A DNA stretch of 64,000 nt, taken from NCBI GenBank assembly GCA_027575765.1, contig JANBPT010000112.1, positions 1 through 64,000 of the forward strand, in the 5' to 3' direction. How positions within the stretch are numbered: the stretch's first letter is position 1; each line of letters opens with the position of its first letter. A program made the translations under genes and the position numbers. The DNA is from Tieghemiomyces parasiticus. Lineage: Eukaryota > Kickxellomycota > Dimargaritomycetes > Dimargaritales > Dimargaritaceae. This document shows positions 6,373-54,466 of the stretch, piece after piece. The notes below the pieces were generated by a model that ran no database searches, was not told the origin of the DNA, and saw only the letters and a program-made list of their open reading frames with translations.

Positions 6373-7373
6373 ACTGGGGGTGGCGGGGAAAAGGGAGCTT
6401 GGCCAAGGAGGGATGCGCCCGTTAATTGTATTTTTTTTGTTTCTGTCGATGGCCTGTGAGATTTTGATGACCCGATAAATCCTACCCCACGGCTATGGTA
6501 ACCAATTTTAATATATGCTAGTGTGGACCTTGATTATATCGGGCAAGCCCACCCTGACGTGGTCTATCCCATTTCTCGATTAATACCATCGGCCATTTTA
6601 GCTTACGTTGTCTGGGATACGAACGTTCTACATACCTCAGCCTAGCCTCCGTCGCCAGCTCCCTGCCACCAGGTCACAGCCCTGTTACCAGGAACCAGCG
6701 TAGAACCAACAAGTAGTCCCTCCCTCCACAGGGCCGCCGCTAGGCGGCAGGGGTTGCTTTTTTTTATTTCCCTGTACGACTCCATGTCGTTCCGCGCCAC
6801 TAGGAGTCAAGCGTTAAGCGGACTGCCGCGCCCCGAACACCCACTACCTATCCATTCTACATATATTTATGCTGTGGCTGTACCACCTCACTCGCCGGTG
6901 TGATCTTGTCGGCCATCTCGGTATCAGTGTAACGGCTCCCGCCAATGCTTGTACAGACTTTTGCCTAGTAGTGTAACGAAAAAGGACAGACTCGTTGGCG
7001 ACCACGACCCTGTGTTCGTTTCATCGCCAGTAGTTATGAATCATAAAGCGTTTTTATTTCTTTAAGAGGATGGGGATTGAGCGGCGTCGGAGAAGCGAGG
7101 TTCGTCCCCTTCCTCCACTCACTGAGGGTCGTATACCGATACGCTCTCCTGGTTACTCCAATATTATAAAAGATGAACAGCGGCCTTTACGTTCACACTT
7201 GTCACTACACCGCATGACTATCCGGCCTTTGTAAACCCCACCCGTTCGATCTAGAGTTTTTATTTACCATCGCAGAATCAGTTGGTATATTTTCCGACTG
7301 CGGCTAGTCGACCGTAACCCAAGCGCGTGACTTCTCATCTTTGTTTTTAGTTTTACTTTTTTATTATTCAACT
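6373..7373. other. Intergenic region before the first secreted gene
   Basis: Roughly 1 kb of AT-rich, non-coding sequence with homopolymer T runs. It holds the 3' region of the ankyrin gene and the promoter of the first tandem secreted gene, including a TATA-like element at 7165-7172. Confidence 0.5.
7165..7172 (+). promoter_or_regulatory. TATA-like element upstream of secreted gene 1
   Basis: TATAAAAG lies about 200 bases before the ATG at 7374. The match to a TATA box is good but is the only evidence; a similar CATAAAAAG lies near 9597-9605, before the second family member. Confidence 0.3.
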
Positions 7374-8609
7374 ATGCGTGCGGCCCTCTATTTCACTGTG
7401 GCCCTGACGGCTGCTCCGTGGCTAGCTGAAATTACAGCTCGTCCAGCCTCAGACGTGCCGCTCAACAATCTGGGCACCACATCTAATTTAGATACCGATA
7501 ACTTCGAAGCCTTCATGTATTTCAGTGATGACGGTGGAAGCCCACTTAGTGACATGGAGGAAACCAGTCTGGACGACAGCCGGGGCCTTTCTTTGGACCA
7601 TTTTGAGTTCCCCACGGATAACGAAGCTGGGACCACTTCGCTCAATACTATCGGCGTCCCGGTCGACGTCACTACTAGCCCGCCACCCTTTGTACTGGAG
7701 AACTTGGTCAATACACTATCGAGTCAAAACGAGCCAGCTACGATCTCACCGGTCCAAATGAATGCTCCTACTATCCCCTCCGCGCCGGCCCCTGTCCTTC
7801 AGCTCCCGCCAGTCTCAGCTAGTAAACCGGGTATAGTGAGGCCGATAGCCCCAGCCCCGGCACCGGTACCCGTACCCGCCGTCCAGCAAACCCTGCTCGG
7901 GGCGCCTTCTTACCAATCCAACGCCCAGCAGACGACCAATGATGCCAGATTTACCCCTTCCGGGTCCGCAACCCCCTTGAACCTTTTCGAAACCAGACCG
8001 GGGCTTGTAACCACCCCCGTCATGCCGGCCACGGCGGGTTCGACACAACCATCAGCCTTAAATCAGCAGAACATACGAGGGCTCCTCACCAACCTAGGCC
8101 TCGTTGAATCTGGGTTCACCGCTTACCCCCACGTTGAATCCGTCCTCTACCCATCCAATCTAGACTCGTTTCAGCAATACATGGGGCTCTACCAGCAGGA
8201 GGTCGAGCGCGATACCCGCAGCCTCAACCTGGCCCAGGAAGACAAAAGTATCCTGCTCAATAGCCGTTTTGCTCTCCGTTACCAACGGGTTAATGCTGCC
8301 ATCCGTGGAAAATTCGTCATGTACTATGGGTTTTGGGACGAGCAGGCGGACCAGCAAAAGCAGGTCCGTTACCGTATCGCGTACCACCCACGCTTTCCGT
8401 TTATGGTTAACGAGGATTTGATTGCCAAGTATTTTGGTCTACGCAGGATGGCTATCGAAAAGATCTTACCAGACACTGCTGACACCTTTGCTAAGCTGGT
8501 GACGATGTTCGGGGTCATGCAGCCTAGCCAAGGGTTCATTTTGGACCCGAACTACATGCTGGTCGGGATTCGACCCATATACCTACCCGGAGCCGCGCCA
8601 CCGTCGTAA
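7374..8609 (+). CDS. Secreted protein of a novel tandem family, member 1
   Basis: The start is taken as ATG 7374, because the 11 codons upstream begin only with TTG and the ATG opens a good signal peptide (MRAALYFTVALTAAPW...). The predicted protein is 411 residues. The mature part has no cysteine. A Ser/Thr/Asp-rich, then Pro/Ala-rich region (about 25-225) looks disordered and O-glycosylated. A folded C-terminal region begins near residue 230. It contains an ERDTRSLNL segment and ends in a 70-residue block starting at RYRIAYHPR (about 332-401), with DTADTF, a Gln-Gly pair and VGIRP. That block aligns without gaps to the two downstream genes. I do not recognise the domain. It is likely an extracellular or wall-associated protein, possibly an effector, but no function is claimed. 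Confidence 0.85.
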   Translation: MRAALYFTVALTAAPWLAEITARPASDVPLNNLGTTSNLDTDNFEAFMYFSDDGGSPLSDMEETSLDDSRGLSLDHFEFPTDNEAGTTSLNTIGVPVDVTTSPPPFVLENLVNTLSSQNEPATISPVQMNAPTIPSAPAPVLQLPPVSASKPGIVRPIAPAPAPVPVPAVQQTLLGAPSYQSNAQQTTNDARFTPSGSATPLNLFETRPGLVTTPVMPATAGSTQPSALNQQNIRGLLTNLGLVESGFTAYPHVESVLYPSNLDSFQQYMGLYQQEVERDTRSLNLAQEDKSILLNSRFALRYQRVNAAIRGKFVMYYGFWDEQADQQKQVRYRIAYHPRFPFMVNEDLIAKYFGLRRMAIEKILPDTADTFAKLVTMFGVMQPSQGFILDPNYMLVGIRPIYLPGAAPPS

Positions 8610-9743
8610 CGAGTGCTCCTTTCTAAGCTGAATTTTCCTTCCCTTCCTTTTTAACTTGGCTTTTAATTTTAGATGTTGTTGGTGAGTGTTTATATATGTC
8701 CAACAAGTCAATAATAGTCACTCACTCTCCCCTTTGGACGTCATTAGATATAACTGGTAATGGGTGGCTGAGGTGTATTTCCAGTGAGATGTATTAGCAG
8801 GCTGGTCTCTATTTCCAACTGATTGCGAAGCCATCCCATCTAGATACTCCATTAGGGGCTTTATAAAAGCATGTTAAGCTGACTCAACCGGGCCGACTTG
8901 GCACCACTTTACCATCTCAGTCCCATCACCCTCTCTTCCCCCCCGTCCTCTCTCCCTCCTCATCAAGCACGCCATTCCTTGTTGCACACCCACCTACTCA
9001 CCCCACAGCCGTTTAATCAGCACCACTTATAGCCTATTTGCCGCGTAACACCAGTCGGCTATTGAGTTGGGCCATTATCTTTCGGGATATCCATATCGAC
9101 AACAGATAAATAGCCCCTCTTCATATGATTGGCCAAGCCATTGAACTGCCCACTGCTAAAAAATAATCATAATACAGGTCAATAGAGCCGTTCGTTGAAC
9201 CAATGTGTCATTCGCCAACGCCTATGACAAAGCAGCTGAGTTCCATGTCATTAATTGGAAACCATATATATAAGTAAAAACTAAACGGTCATCGAGTAAG
9301 CGATGTGAACCCACGAACAGAATAGGTGCCACCAAGGTGGCGAATAGGCGATATTCAAACCGGACACATGTAGGTCACGACTTAGGGTACGACCCTAGCC
9401 ACTGGGTGGCGGTAGGGACGAGGGTTGACGGCTCTACATCCCACTTGAGGCGTACCCAATGTTGTTACATCCGGGCCGGATTTCCAATAAAAATGCTGGG
9501 TAGGGGTTAACAGCCAGCACGGTGACGCAGCGTTTCGGGTTCCTTCGCGAATCCTAATGAGTGGCGGTGAAAGAGTGGAGTCGGTCAGGATGAATCATAA
9601 AAAGGCTAACCGTTGGCCAGTATCCTTGCCTCCCTCTCTCGCCAACTTCACAAGACGTTAAATTTTTCGTCGGTGCACCGGACAACCTACCTGCGTGATC
9701 CACTAGCTACGTTTACAGTACTGTATTAATCCTATTGAATACC
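8610..9743. other. Intergenic region between secreted genes 1 and 2
   Basis: About 1.1 kb without a convincing ORF. It has a pyrimidine-rich segment (about 8925-9010), a TATATATAAG run near 9264-9273 and a short perfect inverted repeat, GCCACC-AA-GGTGGC, at about 9327-9340. I see no broken copy of the secreted family here. Confidence 0.45.
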
Positions 9744-10772
9744 ATGAAATCAATCACCATTCTTTACAGCCTTTTGCCGCTCACCATCTGGCTTGTCGGC
9801 GTGCAAAGCTTTCCCCCGAAATACCGTGCCGGGTCTTCAACTACGGGAGAGGACGCCAATCTCTACGACACCTATCTGTTAAGGGCTTTCACGACGCTAA
9901 TGGATCCTGAAGGAGGAGGAGAAGGGCCTGGTTACAGTGCCGTCCCGGAGGTTTTGAATGATGAGGCCTTGAGCCTGGCTCCTTTTGAGGACATTCCACA
10001 CATACCATATTCACCTGGTCTTGCCAGTGGCCAAGGCGTTGGTTCGCCTGAGAACGGGATCCATCTCCGTAGCCTCCTAGATACCAGTAACCTTAACCTT
10101 CCTCCGTCATCAAGCACCGCCAACGCAGCGACCGGAATATCCGCATCGGCCGAGCATGTCCCATCAGAGAAGGGGGATACCCCCAACGATCCGCCTCAGA
10201 CTATTACAGCCGTTGAGCATTATAGAATAATTACCCTTTTGTCCACAGTCCTCGACTGGTATCTCCAGACTAGCCCGTCAGGGTTCCCGGGCATCCTGAG
10301 TGTCGAAGCGCTCGCCCAACCCCAACACTGCGATGTTGTCCAGCTTTGTGATTTTATGATAACCGAGAATGCGAAACGAGACCGTGATACTCTTATCGGC
10401 CTTTCTGCCACTACCCATATCACCTCTAGAGATCAAAGTGTTGCGCGTGGGGTTAAGCTACGGGGTGCTTATTCCCAAGGACAGATTCTGGTCTACTGCT
10501 TCCTTGATACCGTCGTCGTGGCTGGCCATACGAGACCTCAGATCCGCTACGAGATTGCCAGCCACCCCAGGATCGTCGGCCAGGTCAATACCACCCTGAC
10601 AAACCGGTATATAACCCGCGAGGGCCCGGTGGTCGAACACATGTTTCACGATACCGAGGATACTTGGGTTCACTTAGCCACTTTGTTGGGCTGGGCTCAG
10701 CGTTTCGCAGGGTTCCCCACCGACCCTCTGTATGCCTACGTTGGGATTCGACCCTTTATACTGGCCATGTGA
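9744..10772 (+). CDS. Secreted protein of a novel tandem family, member 2
   Basis: The start is ATG 9744 in an accATG context; the frame extends three codons upstream only from a TTG. The 342-residue product has a clear signal peptide (MKSITILYSLLPLTIWLVG, cleavage near VQS-FP). A Gly/Ser/Pro-rich region (about 30-150) leads to a helical part with two cysteines (near residues 203 and 209) and an RDRDTLIGL segment matching ERDTRSLNL of member 1. The C-terminal block starts RYEIASHPR at residue 268 and carries DTEDTW, GFPTDPLYAYVGIRP and the end of the protein. It matches members 1 and 3 at the same spacing, without gaps. The family is not recognised. No catalytic pattern of a known hydrolase is visible. 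Confidence 0.85.
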   Translation: MKSITILYSLLPLTIWLVGVQSFPPKYRAGSSTTGEDANLYDTYLLRAFTTLMDPEGGGEGPGYSAVPEVLNDEALSLAPFEDIPHIPYSPGLASGQGVGSPENGIHLRSLLDTSNLNLPPSSSTANAATGISASAEHVPSEKGDTPNDPPQTITAVEHYRIITLLSTVLDWYLQTSPSGFPGILSVEALAQPQHCDVVQLCDFMITENAKRDRDTLIGLSATTHITSRDQSVARGVKLRGAYSQGQILVYCFLDTVVVAGHTRPQIRYEIASHPRIVGQVNTTLTNRYITREGPVVEHMFHDTEDTWVHLATLLGWAQRFAGFPTDPLYAYVGIRPFILAM

Positions 10773-12052
10773 CCGTGGAGACGTTGTCATATTGCGTTGG
10801 TTTCGAGCAGTACGCTCTTATAAAAAAATGCTAATTACTTTGACTTTAAGGCGTGTGACATCCACGTAAGAAATACTGTCCATGGGGGGAGAAATATATT
10901 CTACGGACTGATATACTGAGTTACGCGGAGCTTTTAATGAAACCGAGCTCTTCTAGGTAGGGGCCAACAAGGCCAAACGGTTGCAAGTCAGAGAAGTATA
11001 AGGAGGGGGAAGAAACGGAACACTGTGAAGACATAGTGAAGAGGATAATGAAAACAGATGGAAAACGGGAAGCGAGAGAACAAGGCCAGGTTCCTACCCG
11101 GTCTCTTTCCTATGTCCTTCAGGTAAGATTTCGATCTAACTTACTCAGGTGGGCCTGGGTACCGGTGAGTCATAACAGTTGGGGACAGGGGGTGTCCTTC
11201 AGGAGGTCGGTCCCTCCGCCACAATACCACCATGGTAAATTGTATTGATAAGCGTCGGCTTTCTTTGGTATGTGGGAAACCGTCACTCGACCATAGGATC
11301 CGGTTCTAGGGACGATTTAAAAATTAACTCGGCTATGGTCAAAATTTCGACAACTAAAATACCGCCCGCCCCCGCTCTCCCTCACAAACTGCAACAAGTA
11401 GAGCACACGGCGTACACAAGGACCTGGCCCTCTTCTCACTTTGTAAGGCGTGATTCTGTACAACACTACCCTACGTCCCCAACTCGGTGCAGTTGGAGTT
11501 ACCTTCCCGGTAACTGTTTTCACTCATCATCCAGTTTAACCTCCGTTAACTAGTTGGCGTGGAATCTATCGACAACGCTGAACGTGTCCCTTCCCTTTTA
11601 ATACCGCTATATTAGAACGACAAAGGGAGGAGGATTATTCGTTTTGGATTATGTCCAGGAACTTTCATTCATAGCGCAATCTCGAATTCATCAGCCTCCA
11701 AGGGACCCCCGGAAATTCGCTCTTAGCTCTTACACCGTTACACTAATCGACTCCGAATTGTTAAGAAAGGCCGATGGTCACGGTATTAGCAATGGTGCAA
11801 GCGATGGTGACAAATGCAGAAGCGATGATGCTATGCTTCGATTAGTAAAACTTATGTTGTCAGCCGACTCCGTAGGTCAAGCATGACTACAGTCTCTACA
11901 TATATCTAGACATTTTCCGCCGCTTAGTTTTCAAGGCATCGAGTACAGTACTTGTTTTATATATATATATATATACGTATTTATCATTTTGACGCCCTAA
12001 TTTTCACATACCTGATCTGCCATTGTCTAAAGCTTATTAATCTGCAACCATC
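10773..12052. other. Intergenic region between secreted genes 2 and 3
   Basis: About 1.3 kb. Several ORFs of 70-100 codons occur, including one of 80 codons at 11644-11886, but none has family motifs, a signal peptide or codon bias like the neighbours. An AT dinucleotide repeat lies near the 3' end. Confidence 0.45.
11958..11975. repeat. (TA)9 microsatellite
   Basis: Nine TA units, about 80 bases upstream of the third secreted gene. It could serve as a TATA-type promoter element or simply be a length-variable microsatellite. Confidence 0.8.
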
Positions 12053-13063
12053 ATGACTCGATACTGGGCCCATTTACTCTGCTTGCAGGTCTTAACATTT
12101 CGCATCGTTCATCTACGTCCTATCCATACCCCGACAACGGCACTAGTTAACCCTAACACGACTATTGAGCCCGAGGTTTCCATCGACCCGTTTGCTGAGT
12201 ACACCACTCTCGGTCACTTCGATGACGACGTCATTTCTAATAGTCACTCACCCTCCTGGTCTGATGTACTGGCCATCCTCTGTGACCCAGCGTTCTCGAC
12301 CACGGGTTCCCCCGATTGTGTCCCGGGTCCATCATTTATCCCGGTCACCGGCTCGGAAAGCGCCCGGACCGGCCACCAGGAAGGGCTGGATAGAATAAGA
12401 GAGTCTAGCGAGCTTACCACGCTCTCGTTAGGTACCGCCGATGTTTCGTCTGGCTCAATCACCGCGAATAACTCTCCTCTCCACCTTGCCATTTCGCTTC
12501 ATGGCATACCAACCCACCACTTTAGTGACGAACACGATTCCGGGTTCGGCCTGTACCGTACGGCCGACTCGCCCCGTCTCGACCGGATTGCGGAGCCCAG
12601 TCACGAGCTTCACGCGGTGTTTGTAGACATGATCCGGAGGCGTGCGCAGGACCGGCTCCAACTGACGACGACCGTGACGATAATCGAGAATCTGACCCAA
12701 CGCTACCAAATTTGGTACGCCGCGCAGCAGCGGGGGCTGGTACTGGCCTACGCCTACTTAGATGGTACCAGCCAACCGGCAGGAGCCCTGCGCTACGAAT
12801 TGGCTTTTCATCCGCGTCTATCTTTTGCGGACAACTTGCGCCTGGCCGTAATCTACATTAGCCACCAGGGCAATACCCTCCATCGGGCGTACCCGGACAC
12901 TGTGTACACGTGGGTTATCCTTGTGCTGATTCTTGGGGTCTACCAGCCTCTGACCGGTATACCAGCTGACGTCGCCTATGCTGCGGTGGGGGTCCGTACA
13001 CCTCAGTACGTCGAACAGATCCTTGCAGCCCGTCGTCAAGCAATTATGTCATCAGGCCTTTAG
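12053..13063 (+). CDS. Secreted protein of a novel tandem family, member 3
   Basis: This 336-residue product starts at ATG 12053 with a probable signal peptide (MTRYWAHLLCLQVLTF...). Its hydrophobic core is shorter and interrupted by Arg/His, so secretion is less certain than for the other two. A variable Ser/Thr/Pro region (about 25-180) is followed by RAQDRLQLTTTV, in the position of the RDT-L-L segment of its neighbours. The gapless C-terminal block starts at RYELAFHPR and includes PDTVYTW, GIPADVAYAAVGVR. It has about 20 extra residues after the block, ending in a basic stretch. This is the most divergent copy: the last motif residue is Thr instead of Pro. Function unknown. Confidence 0.82.
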   Translation: MTRYWAHLLCLQVLTFRIVHLRPIHTPTTALVNPNTTIEPEVSIDPFAEYTTLGHFDDDVISNSHSPSWSDVLAILCDPAFSTTGSPDCVPGPSFIPVTGSESARTGHQEGLDRIRESSELTTLSLGTADVSSGSITANNSPLHLAISLHGIPTHHFSDEHDSGFGLYRTADSPRLDRIAEPSHELHAVFVDMIRRRAQDRLQLTTTVTIIENLTQRYQIWYAAQQRGLVLAYAYLDGTSQPAGALRYELAFHPRLSFADNLRLAVIYISHQGNTLHRAYPDTVYTWVILVLILGVYQPLTGIPADVAYAAVGVRTPQYVEQILAARRQAIMSSGL

Positions 13064-13448
13064 CATAGACACCTGCAACTTAGTTTGGCATGATGGGTGT
13101 GTTTAAAAACCATTATTGGAAGTTCTGGGTAGTATAGATGCAAAATATTGAAAAGGGTATTACAATGAGCAGCGAGATGGCGGGGTGGTGCATTGAAAAT
13201 GATAATAAAAAAAGGTGGACAGATAGATACAAGGTAGGACGGGCAGTAAAGGGCTGAATTGTGTCAAAAAGGGTATAGCTAATGCAGAAGATGACCAGTA
13301 TGCAAAGGAGAACCGTGGAGATGGCTGGAGGTGAAAGTCATGTACAAAAAATACAGTAAGTGTGTCCAACCCTTTTCGAGTGGTAGTGGTGACAGATTGA
13401 AAGTGATAAAAAGTGACACTTGTAGGGAGTGGCAGTTCGACACCAGTC
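13064..13448. other. Convergent intergenic region
   Basis: The 3' ends of the third secreted gene and of the HSDL2-like gene meet here. No gene or structured element is seen apart from A-rich stretches that may serve as poly(A) signals for both strands. Confidence 0.5.
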
Positions 13449-25841: not shown

Positions 25842-28800
25842 ATGGCCGACACGGAGCTCCCACTCAACGGTGGCGTGGCCTCCCGCCGTCCCCAGTCACC
25901 GCCAGTCGTCCCCGTGAAAAAGCGTAACAAGACCCCCTCGTCGTCCCTGTCCTCTGCGATGGCCCCAGCTGGCTACCAGGCCCGCCAGGTGTTCGCCCCG
26001 CCGCAAACCAAACCCCGAAGGTCGACCCGACTCAGCGGCTCGGGCCCAGGCGAGAATGGCGAGTCCCAGACAGCCCCCGGCGGCCGCGCTTCCGGCAACA
26101 AACCCGCGGGAAAGAGGAAACCCTTGCGCACCAAGACGACCGTGCTCGTACCGGCCAGCCACAAGCCTCCGCCGGCCTCCATTTCCCAGACCATGGCCGG
26201 AGCGCCCCGCACCCCAGTCACCCAGCGCACGCGTGGCGACTCGAATCCCGCCCGGCTGCCCATAACTCCGTACACGGCCAAGCTGACGCGAACCATCGAG
26301 AACTATGACGCCGATAAGGACCCCATCAAGACCTACCTCCGCATGCGGCCCTTGCGACCGGGAAGCGAGCACGTGGAGCCGTTCCTGAGCGTCGTCAACG
26401 ACATGGAGATCCAGATCGACGGTCGAGAGAAACGTGCCCGCCTCTACACGTCAGGCAAGTATCTCTTTACCCGGGTGTTCGGCAGCCTCATGTCCCAGCA
26501 GGCTCTGTTCCAGGCTACCACCCTGCCCGTGATCCAGGAGCTATTCGACGGTTACAACACCCTCATCTTCGCCTATGGTGTGACCAACTCGGGCAAGACC
26601 TACACCATCCAGGGGACCCGCGAACAACCCGGGATCATCCCGCGCACCCTCGAAATCATCCTGCACCACATCAAGGACGCTCAAAGTGACTGCCGCGTGT
26701 GCCCGGCCCGTGCCAACGATGTCGTGTACTGCCCTGATGACACTCTGTTCAGCCCGACCTTCCGGTCCACCCGCGAACACACTCTCACCCGCCAAGCCCT
26801 TCAGGGCCACCTGGCGAGTGACGAACATATTCTCAACTTGGACACGGCGGAGTTTGAGTACTCCATCTGGGTGTCTTACGCCGAAATCTATAACGAGTTT
26901 ATCTACGACCTCCTCGATCTGCGGTCGCTGGTCGTGACCAACGGTACGACCAGTCAGCCTCTGTCCCACCCGGGTTCGCGGGTCAATTCCCCTGACCCGT
27001 CGGCCACCTCGCGCCGCCCTGCCCGTCGCAAGGGCACGGGCACCACCGGCGGCGACCATCCGCCCGGCCTACCTACCGGCGGCCCTTCCACCGGCGGCGG
27101 GGGTGACGGTCCAGCCTCGCCCAATAAGCGGTTAAATATGAAGATCCGTACCGACGTGGACGATGACCACTACCTCGAGGGTATCACCGAGGTTCGGATC
27201 CGGACCCTGGAGGACGCCCTGGCCGTGCTCGCTCACGGTCAGAAACGGCGGACCGCCAATTCCACCCTGCTCAACCAGGAGTCCAGTCGGTCGCACAGTA
27301 TCTTCACCATCAAGCTACTGCGCATCCGCCGCCGCTCGGTGGTAGCCCCCGATTTACCGGTCCCCCCACACATGGTCCAGATTCAAAAGATGTCCATCAT
27401 CGACCTGGCAGGATCCGAGCGCGCCGCCAAGACCCAGAACACCGGCGACCGGCTGCACGAGGCCGGTATGATCAACAAGTCCCTTATGGTCCTCGGTAAC
27501 TGCCTCGAGACCCTCCGCTTCAACCAGTTCAAGAGCGACAAGATCAAGCCCCAGATCGTTCCGTTTCGTGAGAGTCAGCTGACCAAACTATTCCAGAGCT
27601 CCTTTATGGGAGGGGCCAAGACGGTGATGCTGGTCAACGTCAATCCGTTCGATGACAGTTACGAGGAAACCCAGCGCGTGCTCAAATTTGCGGCCGTGGC
27701 CAAGGACATCACCACGGTCAACCGCCCGGTAGCTGCCACTCCGCTGTACCGTGCCGTCCTGCACAGTAAACCGCCTGTATTTGGCCTGTATGAGGATCCT
27801 CCCGAACAGGATCGCCCACCCAAGCGTAAGCGTGGGGCCCTGGCCCTTCTGGCCACCGGATCGGACCCCAGCGAGGTCAATTCTACGCTTACCTCGCCAT
27901 CGCTGGCACCTTCGTCCCCATCCCGCGCCTCATCGCCCACGACCGTCGTCGATCCCCGGCCGCTGGTTCTCGCCGAATCACCCACCCCTGGGGCGGAAGC
28001 GGCTGCCATCGACGATGACCACAAAGTGGAAGACGATACCGGAACCCCACGTGAGATGGACTTGGTTAGCCCAGAGGATGAGAAAGCCTCGGCAGACGCG
28101 CCCGGCTTCACCTTCCGGTTCAACCCCCAGCCCCAGGCCGTCCCGGCCCCGCCGGCCGAGGATGTCTTCCAAGTTACCCGTGATGCCTGGGAGGAGCAGA
28201 TCACCTACAGCGAGGAGCTTCGAGCGGCCATGTCCGTACTCAAGGAACAGTTCGCTGCTGCCCAGTATCGCTGTTCCGAAATTGAGGTCGAAGTGCGTGA
28301 GGAACTGAACCAGGAGTACAAGTCTAAACTCCTAGAGATTGAGCAGCGGTACAACCAGCAGCTGCGGGACGAGATGCGGTTGAATGAAGAGAAGATGAAA
28401 AGTAAGATCGATATCCTCACCCGCTCCCAAATCGAGAACGAGGCCTCGATGATGGTGGTGACGCCCACCACGCCAGAGCCCGCCTCCCCGGTCGAGCGCG
28501 CACCCACCCTGCCCCCAGTCGTGGTGACCGCCCCGTGCGACCATGCCGAGCAACTCTCCGAACAGGACCGGGTCATTGTCGAACTGCGTGCTAAGGTTAA
28601 CCAATTGGAGATTCGGGCCGCCCACGACGAGGTCACCCAGTCTGAACTGCATGACCAGCTTGACGCCAAGCACGCCGACTGGCAGGAGGAAAAGACCCAG
28701 CGCCTCCTGCTCACCAACCAGAAGGCCATCCTTGAGGACGAGCTTCGGCGCGCCAAGGGGATCCGCGACGACTGTGAGCGGCGCATATCGACCCACAGCA

Positions 28801-30227
28801 TCACCTACCAGGGCCAGGTGGACGCCCTCAACCAGCAGATCGAAGTGCAGGCCAAGGCGCAACTCAAGGAGCGCCTCGAATGGGAGCGCAGCAAATTCGA
28901 GCTGGAGGCCACCGTCGCCGATCTGCGCGGCCAGCTCAGCTACGAGAAGGAGGCCCGGCGGTCGGTGGTTACGCGCGACTCGATGCACTCCCTGCATTCA
29001 CAGCCGCGGACCGGGCCAGCTAGTCCGGCCCGCAAGGATAGCGAGACCTCGGGCCGTAACGACAACTATGACGTGCAACTCCTACAGCAGATCCAGAAAC
29101 TGCAGCGCCAGGTGGCCGACCGCGATCGTGAGCTCAACGCCCTGTCCCTGGATCGCGAGGAACAACAGGCCCTAATTCACGACCTCAACACCAAGAACAA
29201 TTACCTGCTGCACCAGATGCGCGTGCACCGGTACGCTCAGCACGGGGGCGCGGCTGGACCATCGGGTCTCAGCGCAGGCCCCGCTGGCAGCGAAACCCCA
29301 TCCAGCTCCAAGGTGCGCCGGGTGTTCCAGCACTTTACCCCTGAGGCCAAATCCCTCCGCTCCCCATCGGTCCCCACCGCCATGCTGTCGGGCCTGGGCG
29401 TCCCCCACTCGGACGCGGCAGTTCGCGACCCGGCGGCGCCGCGGTCCCCACACCTGTCACAACAGCAGCGGCTCATGAAGTCCAGCTTCCTCAAGAAATC
29501 CTTGTTTGGTAAGAAGCAGTTGCAGTTTGACGAATACGAGGCCGAGGTGCTTGACCTAGATCCGGCTCGCCAGCAGGTCACGGGCACCATGTACCGCGGA
29601 CCCATCATGCCCACGTCTACTGGGGGCATCCATGTCGAGTTTGCCGACTTGGCTCCTAAATCTGCGGCCGGTGGGGTATCATCTGGTCGCCGCCTGTCCT
29701 ACAGTAGCAGTGACTGGGGAGCATCGGACGGATATCCGCGCCCGCCGCCCCTCCCGACGCAGGGCGGTGGGATGGTCACGGACTCACCAAGCCGGTCGTC
29801 CGTCCATTACCCCCAGCCGACGCCGTTGTCTGCCAACCCGCGCGGCCCCTCGTTCGCCGGAACCGCTCGTCGGACCTCCCGCAGCGAATCCGTAGGCCAC
29901 GCCGCCCGCCCGGCTCATCCGTCGTCATCGTCGGCGGCCGTGGACGACCCACCGTACCTGCGCCGCCGTTCGAGCTTGGATCTTGACGCCCTCCGCAAAC
30001 ACCCCAGCGGGGACGCCGCCGACGCGTCCGCTCGGATCTCGACCGGGCTGAACCCCTCGGCCACCCGGCCCTTGGGCGTAAATCGGGCGGTCGAAGTATC
30101 CCAAACCTCCCTGGAGTTACCGCATCGCTCCGGCGTCCCTAGCCAGGCTCACCCATCCCCGTCCAAGCGGCTGCTGCTTTCGCCCTGGCTAGAAAAGGCC
30201 AAGGCGACCTTCCGTCCGAAACACTAG
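25842..30227 (+). CDS. Kinesin-6 family motor protein
   Basis: This is a 1461-residue intronless protein. A basic, disordered N-terminus (1-150) precedes a motor domain (about 160-625). The motor has the P-loop GVTNSGKT (246-253), switch I NQESSRSH (from 478) and switch II DLAGSER (from 521). The Asn in the P-loop context and a long Pro/Gly/Ser insertion within the motor (about 365-430) are hallmarks of kinesin-6 (MKLP1, MKLP2/KIF20, fission yeast Klp9), which act at the spindle midzone and in cytokinesis. After a Ser/Pro-rich neck there are coiled-coil segments (about 785-860, 900-1050 and 1085-1130) and a long basic, Ser-rich tail. Length is larger than most animal members because of the disordered extensions. 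The ATG lies in a ccATGgc context after a pyrimidine-rich leader. Confidence 0.93.
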   Translation: MADTELPLNGGVASRRPQSPPVVPVKKRNKTPSSSLSSAMAPAGYQARQVFAPPQTKPRRSTRLSGSGPGENGESQTAPGGRASGNKPAGKRKPLRTKTTVLVPASHKPPPASISQTMAGAPRTPVTQRTRGDSNPARLPITPYTAKLTRTIENYDADKDPIKTYLRMRPLRPGSEHVEPFLSVVNDMEIQIDGREKRARLYTSGKYLFTRVFGSLMSQQALFQATTLPVIQELFDGYNTLIFAYGVTNSGKTYTIQGTREQPGIIPRTLEIILHHIKDAQSDCRVCPARANDVVYCPDDTLFSPTFRSTREHTLTRQALQGHLASDEHILNLDTAEFEYSIWVSYAEIYNEFIYDLLDLRSLVVTNGTTSQPLSHPGSRVNSPDPSATSRRPARRKGTGTTGGDHPPGLPTGGPSTGGGGDGPASPNKRLNMKIRTDVDDDHYLEGITEVRIRTLEDALAVLAHGQKRRTANSTLLNQESSRSHSIFTIKLLRIRRRSVVAPDLPVPPHMVQIQKMSIIDLAGSERAAKTQNTGDRLHEAGMINKSLMVLGNCLETLRFNQFKSDKIKPQIVPFRESQLTKLFQSSFMGGAKTVMLVNVNPFDDSYEETQRVLKFAAVAKDITTVNRPVAATPLYRAVLHSKPPVFGLYEDPPEQDRPPKRKRGALALLATGSDPSEVNSTLTSPSLAPSSPSRASSPTTVVDPRPLVLAESPTPGAEAAAIDDDHKVEDDTGTPREMDLVSPEDEKASADAPGFTFRFNPQPQAVPAPPAEDVFQVTRDAWEEQITYSEELRAAMSVLKEQFAAAQYRCSEIEVEVREELNQEYKSKLLEIEQRYNQQLRDEMRLNEEKMKSKIDILTRSQIENEASMMVVTPTTPEPASPVERAPTLPPVVVTAPCDHAEQLSEQDRVIVELRAKVNQLEIRAAHDEVTQSELHDQLDAKHADWQEEKTQRLLLTNQKAILEDELRRAKGIRDDCERRISTHSITYQGQVDALNQQIEVQAKAQLKERLEWERSKFELEATVADLRGQLSYEKEARRSVVTRDSMHSLHSQPRTGPASPARKDSETSGRNDNYDVQLLQQIQKLQRQVADRDRELNALSLDREEQQALIHDLNTKNNYLLHQMRVHRYAQHGGAAGPSGLSAGPAGSETPSSSKVRRVFQHFTPEAKSLRSPSVPTAMLSGLGVPHSDAAVRDPAAPRSPHLSQQQRLMKSSFLKKSLFGKKQLQFDEYEAEVLDLDPARQQVTGTMYRGPIMPTSTGGIHVEFADLAPKSAAGGVSSGRRLSYSSSDWGASDGYPRPPPLPTQGGGMVTDSPSRSSVHYPQPTPLSANPRGPSFAGTARRTSRSESVGHAARPAHPSSSSAAVDDPPYLRRRSSLDLDALRKHPSGDAADASARISTGLNPSATRPLGVNRAVEVSQTSLELPHRSGVPSQAHPSPSKRLLLSPWLEKAKATFRPKH

Positions 30228-52459: not shown

Positions 52460-54466
52460 ATGATGAAGCCAGTCAGTTTTATTTTGGTTAAGATCTTAGC
52501 CCTAACCTTGGCCGGTTCCACTCCCACCCGGTCTCACGCTCTAATGACGGAGAGTTTCGGCCCCAGCCTATTGGAGCGTACGTTCCAGGTCGTAGCACCC
52601 ACCGGCCACGACACCAAAGTGCGGCCACGCAACCGCCGCCGGCTGGATTCGGCCGTCCCCCACGCCCACTTGGTGACCCGAAGCCTGGCTTCGGGTGTGG
52701 ACCACGCCACCACATTCGCCAAGGAAACGTTCAACCTGACCGACAGCGACTATTACATGTCCTCGAGTGTCGAGTCGGATTTTGGGATGACACACGTCTA
52801 CCTCAACCAGTTGGTTCACGGATTCCCCGTACAGAATGGCGTCATGAATATTAATGTGGATCGAGAAGGTCGAGTCCTTTCTTACGGTAGCACATTCGTT
52901 CCGTCTAAAGATAGGCTGGGAGCGCACCCAGTATCAGTCTTGGCAAGACGCGACATTGAAGGATCCGTCACACTGTCTCCTGTCCAGGCTTTGCTAATTC
53001 TCGCGCGTAGCTTGGGTTACAATGTTACTGATACAGCCCACGTTATCGCGGAGCCCACCCGGCAGCTCGATACTGATTTTCCAGCGTTTACAATTACCTC
53101 CGATGACCTTGGGCTCAGTATAGACTACGAGATCCAAGTGACCCCTTCCTTTCTAATCACCGACGCCGAGGGACTTGAGGCCGGATACGCCGTGCAGTTC
53201 CGAGACGCCACCCTTTGGTTAGAGGCCTTTGTGGCGTTGGCCTCCGCCGAGGTCACCTCGCTGGTACACTGGTCTGCTGATGCCACCTACCGAGTGTTCC
53301 CTTTGGGCACTGTTAGCGAGATTGAAGGCCCGCGGCAATTAGTCATCGACCCCGAAGACAAACAGGCTTCCCCAGAGGGCTGGGTAGGTCACCTGGGTAC
53401 GACCTCGGGCAACAACGTTCACGCCCAAGAGAACTGGACGGGCCGACCCGCGTGGAAGGCCAACTACCGTCCCCACGTCACTAATGCCGCCACCGGATTT
53501 GATTTCCCGCTTGACATGTCTATCGCCAATGGGGCGGCCGCCGTGGACTCGAAGGTTCACATTGATGCGACCATTACCAATCTGTTTTGCTGGTGTAACT
53601 GGGCTCACGATCTGTTCTACCACTACGGCTTCACGGAGGCCGCCGGTAATTTCCAGGATCGCAACTTTGGCCGCGGTGGGGACGAAAACGATGCCGTGGT
53701 GGCTTTCGCCCAGACCGGGTCGGGTCGTAACAGCGCCGTGTTTGTTACCCCGCCTGACGGCCGCCAACCAGTGATGCGCATGTACCTTTGGGATCGGAGC
53801 ATGCCGGTCCGTGATGGCGCCCTGACCAGTGACATTATCATACACGAATACACCCACGGGGTATCCACCAGGCTAACTGGCGGTCGCAAGAACGTGGGGT
53901 GTTTAGGATGGGACGAGGCCGCAGCCATGAGCGAAGGCTGGGGAGACTTCTTTGCCCTTATATTACACCTAAACGAGACAGCTACCCGCACCACCGCGGT
54001 AGCTATCGGAGCCTACGTGACGCCCGGAGGCCACGGACTGCGCCCTTACCCCTACACCACCAACCTCGCGGTCAACCCGGCCACCTACGCAGACGTGTAT
54101 CGTCCCAACACGCCTTTCCAAGGCAGTCACGAGAACGGTATGATTTGGGCGGCCACCCTGTTCGAAGTATACTGGAACCTGGTCGATAAGTTAGGGTTTG
54201 ACCCAGACTGGACCTCGGCACGTACCAATCGTGGCAATACCCTGGCTGCTCTCCTGGTCATCACCGGGATGAAATTGCAACCCTGTTATCCGAATTTCGT
54301 CCAGGCTCGCGATGCCATCCTTCAAGCGGACGCCGTCATTACCCATGGCGAACACCGCTGTGAGATTTGGCAGGGGTTTGCTAAACGTGGTCTTGGGTGG
54401 CAGGCTCAGGCGGTCAAGCGGAGTAAGCGAACCGCTGACTTTACCCTACCACCCGAGTGTGTCTGA
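52460..54466 (+). CDS. Fungalysin, secreted M36 metalloprotease
   Basis: This intronless ORF encodes 668 residues, within the usual size for fungalysin precursors. A signal peptide (about 1-27, MMKPVSFILVKILALTLAG...) is followed by the inhibitory propeptide with an FTP-like part (about 75-135, with VYLNQLVHGFPVQNGVMNINV). The catalytic domain begins near 290. The gluzincin motif HEYTH is at 462-466, and the third zinc ligand Glu492 lies in MSEGWGDFF. CWCNWAHDLFYHYGFTEAAGNFQ and HENGMIWAATLFEVYWNLVD are further conserved blocks. Fungalysins degrade extracellular proteins such as elastin and keratin and are often expanded in parasitic fungi. All catalytic residues are present, so it should be active after propeptide removal. 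The gene stands alone in a gene-poor stretch. Confidence 0.96.
   Translation: MMKPVSFILVKILALTLAGSTPTRSHALMTESFGPSLLERTFQVVAPTGHDTKVRPRNRRRLDSAVPHAHLVTRSLASGVDHATTFAKETFNLTDSDYYMSSSVESDFGMTHVYLNQLVHGFPVQNGVMNINVDREGRVLSYGSTFVPSKDRLGAHPVSVLARRDIEGSVTLSPVQALLILARSLGYNVTDTAHVIAEPTRQLDTDFPAFTITSDDLGLSIDYEIQVTPSFLITDAEGLEAGYAVQFRDATLWLEAFVALASAEVTSLVHWSADATYRVFPLGTVSEIEGPRQLVIDPEDKQASPEGWVGHLGTTSGNNVHAQENWTGRPAWKANYRPHVTNAATGFDFPLDMSIANGAAAVDSKVHIDATITNLFCWCNWAHDLFYHYGFTEAAGNFQDRNFGRGGDENDAVVAFAQTGSGRNSAVFVTPPDGRQPVMRMYLWDRSMPVRDGALTSDIIIHEYTHGVSTRLTGGRKNVGCLGWDEAAAMSEGWGDFFALILHLNETATRTTAVAIGAYVTPGGHGLRPYPYTTNLAVNPATYADVYRPNTPFQGSHENGMIWAATLFEVYWNLVDKLGFDPDWTSARTNRGNTLAALLVITGMKLQPCYPNFVQARDAILQADAVITHGEHRCEIWQGFAKRGLGWQAQAVKRSKRTADFTLPPECV

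Follow-up and report, generated by a model that had tools for sequence, protein, structure and literature searches.

Three tandem genes of Tieghemiomyces parasiticus, here called A, B and C, are most readily understood, if tentatively, as old paralogues that encode probably secreted, lineage-specific domain proteins possibly directed at a host. T. parasiticus, a member of the Dimargaritales (Kickxellomycotina), lives as a haustorial mycoparasite. A review describes the Dimargaritales as haustorium-forming mycoparasites whose hosts are mostly Mucoromycota (PMC10386755). The window analysed here is the whole stretch of 64,000 bases (positions 1–64000 of a 71,817-base contig). As an original prediction made from the letters of this DNA had proposed, it holds three consecutive genes on the forward strand. 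Each is an uninterrupted single frame: gene A (7374..8609, 411 aa), gene B (9744..10772, 342 aa) and gene C (12053..13063, 336 aa). The second-haplotype allele of gene A corresponds to an annotated hypothetical protein of T. parasiticus (IWQ60_001683, 413 aa); genes B and C are apparently missing from the public protein set, though they adjoin the allele of gene A annotated there.

All three proteins end in a shared domain. BLASTP of the whole proteins aligned A with B at 30% identity over 162 columns (E 1e-18), B with C at 34% over 152 columns (E 7e-16) and A with C at 27% over 161 columns (E 3e-15), so that, judged by alignment, the homologous part is about twice the 70 residues originally claimed (152–162 aligned columns). 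This domain occupies 8109..8606 in gene A (residues 246–411), 10278..10769 in gene B and 12569..13060 in gene C (all forward strand), as delimited by BLASTP and alignment, with predicted models for A and B (m0d119765efaf and m8cca9f4529d6, respectively); the boundaries between signal, middle and domain in all three genes come from BLAST limits and from inspection by eye. Within the domain lies the ungapped 70-residue block that had first been noticed (8367-8576, 10545-10754 and 12791-13000 on the same strand), with triple identities at exactly the 21 of 70 positions listed at that time; in 20,000 residue shuffles of the 70-residue blocks such identities averaged 0.30 and never exceeded 4. When the three second-haplotype alleles are added, 20 of 70 positions are invariant, the block's first R being H in allele A2; in alignment A2, the row of that allele (row 5) starts one codon late. 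An upstream segment described as R-D-T...L-L belongs to the shared part, since it falls within the 152–162 columns of BLASTP homology, but its invariant positions come down to a single R and a single L.

The original prediction had attributed the trio to duplication followed by rapid diversification. Tandem paralogy stands, but the paralogues are only 27–34% identical in their shared part, which makes the duplications old; we reject a recent expansion on this ground (there are three genes), and the middles of A and B evolve near neutrality, as described below. The isoelectric point of the domain differs among the three proteins (8.8 in A, a near-neutral 6.6 in B and 9.3 in C), and an argument from a common charge was dropped; in A and C a basic domain thus belongs to a protein that is acidic as a whole (pI 4.75 and 5.84, respectively). 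Cysteines are few: A has none, B has three and C has three, one of them inside its signal-like start. Dibasic, Kex2-type sites do not correspond between the proteins: inside the shared part, B has KR 211 and C has RR 195-196, and the sole such site of A is RR 357. A common processing site was rejected.

The beginnings of the proteins are consistent with secretion, to differing degrees. A signal peptide or signal-like start had been predicted for each gene, and hydropathy gives normal-looking signal peptides for A (7374..7442, residues 1–23) and B (9744..9812, residues 1–23), with boundaries set by eye, but a weaker start for C (12053..12130, residues 1–26, boundary likewise by eye), whose hydrophobic run is broken by Arg in this haplotype and by Pro in the other. 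Between start and domain lie the middles (7443..8108 in A, residues 24–245; 9813..10277 in B; 12131..12568 in C, all forward strand), which are as rich in Ser, Thr and Pro as predicted: 31–34% of their residues, versus 15–18% in the C-terminal parts. The middles of A, B and C gave no mutual BLASTP alignment at E 10. Searched against the assembly, the middle of gene A matches only itself and its own allele, besides one match at E 0.84 that was discarded as chance because it contains two stops.

This architecture may also belong to extracellular proteins that the fungus makes for its own use, at the wall or at the surface of the spore or merosporangium, with the C-terminal domain as the part that anchors or assembles in the matrix, spaced off by the Ser/Thr/Pro-rich middle. 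We regard this reading as possible, if not quite probable. Signal-like starts and Ser/Thr/Pro-rich middles would suit it, as would the near-neutral middle and constrained domain of A and B and the small size of a family that sits amid housekeeping-type genes; against it, N-glycosylation sites are few (0, 1 and 3 in A, B and C), Pfam gives no match to a wall-binding family, and in the interval 7300-13100 no tandem-repeat array lies within a gene, the one repeat being an intergenic TA run at 11958-11975.

The search for relatives points to a family confined, as far as it reached, to these loci. Each of five genome queries (full-length B, the domains of A and C, and those of alleles B2 and C2 from the second haplotype; the first-haplotype B domain alone and the domain of allele A2 were left out) found the same six places in the 46.5 Mb assembly, namely the trio and its second-haplotype alleles. 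In a collection of 5.8 billion proteins, the domain of gene A (98 candidates) and a family profile (7997 best candidates scored) each recovered only the two alleles of gene A; gene C was absent by the profile among those best 7997 candidates, and B as query returned nothing. This search needs shared 5-residue words, and with B as query it failed to return gene A, which is a genuine paralogue present in the collection; distant relatives in other fungi may therefore have escaped it as well.

The original prediction had further held that the domain bears no known name and had proposed a profile search, which bore it out: Pfam, NCBIfam and the PDB sequences hold no credible relative of the shared domain. 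Pfam gave 0 families for the three full proteins at E 10, no family above its gathering score for A, B or C, and, for the six C-terminal domains, only two families with one member each, DUF1722 and Csf1_N (E 0.2 and 0.3), which we take as chance, as we do a thioredoxin match (E 1.5) and matches to EGF-module receptor chains (E 0.54 and 1.4). Pattern searches of bacterial and archaeal contigs (44 matches) and of viral contigs (36 matches) brought no relative, and in the one open-licence library searched no entry listed for Tieghemiomyces, Dimargaritales, mycoparasite effectors or disordered effectors names the genes.

Structure prediction suggests a fold for the domain. Models led by B and by A, both built from the same six sequences, show the same main elements in the same order, in agreement with a common fold of the blocks of these two proteins; confidence in the A-led model is moderate (pLDDT 69.5, pTM 0.65). 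As modelled, the domain would be a mixed alpha/beta, H-H-b-b-H-b-H module. Foldseek comparison of both models with solved structures gave no convincing match. The top row for the B-led model was the EsaD nuclease domain (PDB 8guo; E 0.089 over 164 columns), with a probability of 0.14, a TM-score of 0.17 and an rmsd of 16.2, and EsaD was absent among the 50 matches listed for the A-led model; with such weak scores, and from the B-led model only, we take this kinship as chance. A library of viral folds gave nothing at E 0.001 for the B-led model.

A second copy of the region made it possible to compare alleles. Contig C887 of the same assembly is collinear with the window: the first 60,000 of its 88,148 bases align to window positions 4252-63655, in three long blocks at 91–94% identity. 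We read C887 as the second haplotype of the region and the assembly as two collinear haplotypes, in which case 46.5 Mb may overstate the haploid genome size; T. parasiticus is thus probably non-haploid. Relatives are described likewise: according to PMC10386755, Dimargaris cristalligena "may be nonhaploid", and PMC6784888 gives three of the four Zoopagomycota studied as non-haploid. Across 4252-63655 the haplotypes are about 6–9% apart.

Comparison of the haplotypes by a simple counting method (Nei-Gojobori type, one haplotype pair) revealed that the trio has the three highest dN values among 15 gene stretches (A 0.079, B 0.075, C 0.047), followed by 0.043 in a 120-codon HIS4 fragment and then 0.028. 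In A and B this change is concentrated in the middle: dN/dS is 1.09 and 0.92 in their middles and 1.01 when these are pooled (bootstrap 0.67–1.64), versus 0.32 (0.20–0.52) in their pooled C-terminal domains, a difference with p 0.0002 per nonsynonymous site and p 0.0024 for nonsynonymous versus synonymous changes. By gene, the per-site contrast is significant in B (p 0.0005), not significant in A alone (p 0.08) and absent in C (p 0.45), where the middle, at 0.26, is no faster than the domain, at 0.48. The predicted opposition of a variable N-terminal and a conserved C-terminal part, to be checked by dN/dS, therefore holds for A and B together but not for C. In no part of the three genes is dN/dS significantly above 1 in this haplotype pair, and so neither an arms race nor positive selection is shown. 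The domains of the trio, pooled at 0.36 (0.23–0.56), are under constraint, as are those of A and B; 12 other gene stretches pooled are held tighter still (0.14). From these comparisons, A and B are proteins with a relaxed, near-neutral middle on a constrained domain.

Could disorder alone account for the speed of change? When genes are cut every 100 codons or so, the trio supplies the top six in pN among the 71 pieces examined (the HIS4 fragment left out), and one of these, A 206-308, reaches into the domain; elsewhere, 24 pieces with few order-promoting residues have a mean pN of 0.017 and a maximum of 0.045. This comparison, though crude (those 24 have <25% order-promoting residues, the family middles 26–27%), suggests that the trio changes faster than disorder alone would give here. 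Elsewhere in the window, a fungalysin M36 protease at 52460-54466 has pN = pS = 0.054 between haplotypes over residues 1–111, its signal and propeptide region.

The same allelic data bear on two further explanations. That the frames are decaying or non-functional, as near-neutral middles in A and B and the lack of predicted proteins for B and C might suggest, is very improbable: all six frames (A, B and C in two haplotypes) are open, alleles differ by whole-codon indels only (2, 1 and 0 gap codons in A, B and C), and the C-terminal domains are constrained. Recognition or mating-type proteins, whose alleles would be kept different, are an improbable though less remote reading. The alleles of A and B do differ at about 15% of residues, and four 1-kb bins, with starts at 8001, 9001, 10001 and 11001, rank with the window's most divergent between haplotypes (0.091–0.120). 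However, dS in the trio (0.112–0.144) is close to, or a little higher than, the values in its neighbours (0.063–0.127), and bin 56001, which holds no frame of at least 120 aa, also reaches 0.097; together these indicate no clear excess age of the trio's alleles.

The surroundings are of housekeeping type. Of the 10 neighbours scanned, Pfam left 3 without a family and placed a HIS4-type histidine gene, an ankyrin protein, an AAA ATPase, SPB1, a DWNN/zinc-knuckle protein (presumably MPE1-like), the fungalysin M36 protease mentioned above and one protein of Myb/SANT type; we take 25842-30227 to encode a kinesin. Neither an Rfam family nor a tRNA was detected in the window. Between B and C, at approximately 10917..11223, lies a dispersed repeat of about 300 bases, present in this haplotype only and absent from C887, that matches 31 further places in the assembly, some only partly, at 66–82%; judged from these matches, it is a short dispersed element with insertion polymorphism. 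Just past the stop of gene A, a segment of about 66 bases (window ~8652-8717; L007 4381-4445) is inverted between haplotypes, apparently with short inverted repeats at both ends. The 500-base stretches upstream of A, B and C have 0 common 9- or 10-base words and one common 8-mer, AAAACTAA (shuffle mean 0.125, maximum 2), which makes no case for co-regulation through common promoter words.

Parasitic fungi commonly have orphan families of secreted proteins, and the trio resembles candidate-effector families of filamentous fungi and oomycetes in a number of ways: signal-like starts, tandem paralogues, fast amino-acid change and no relatives detected outside the lineage. It differs from them in being neither large and expanded nor cysteine-rich, in the age of its duplicates and in the constraint at its C-terminus. 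Oomycete RXLR/WY-domain effectors share with it a signal peptide, a probably flexible stretch and then a cysteine-poor C-terminal fold, but the RxLR, LFLAK and dEER motifs are all missing from A1, B1, C1, B2 and C2 (A2 lay outside the scan), so that neither the RxLR nor the EER motif of those effectors is present in these alleles, and the modelled fold would be mixed alpha/beta whereas the WY bundle is all-helical. The one Y/F/WxC match among the scanned alleles falls inside the signal-like start of C2.

Secretion together with a working C-terminal domain is, in our judgement, likely. The signal peptide would send the proteins outside; the Ser/Thr/Pro-rich middle may act as a flexible tether, the exact sequence of which would be of little consequence in A and B; and the folded H-H-b-b-H-b-H module would be the working part, with a binding partner either on the cell surface or at the host-hypha interface, the haustorium. 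With the three copies so far diverged, we propose that they probably bind different partners. A host-directed role, drawn from the organism's life style, is our leading guess, with a role at the fungus's own surface close behind; the weak signal peptide of C, the scarcity of cysteines, the housekeeping-type surroundings and the lack of any family expansion weigh against it. We consider it rather unlikely that the whole of a stronger reading holds, in which a secreted domain new to description, with a fold of its own and restricted to Tieghemiomyces or the Dimargaritales, manipulates the mucoralean hosts of this fungus-on-fungus biotroph.

To our knowledge, little is known of the proteins secreted by haustorial mycoparasites of the Kickxellomycotina. 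If host-directed, the trio would be a concrete, small candidate set of fungus-on-fungus effectors, with a constrained domain amenable to expression and structure solution. If it is not, the domain is still a well-delimited orphan on which the two haplotypes allow selection to be measured.
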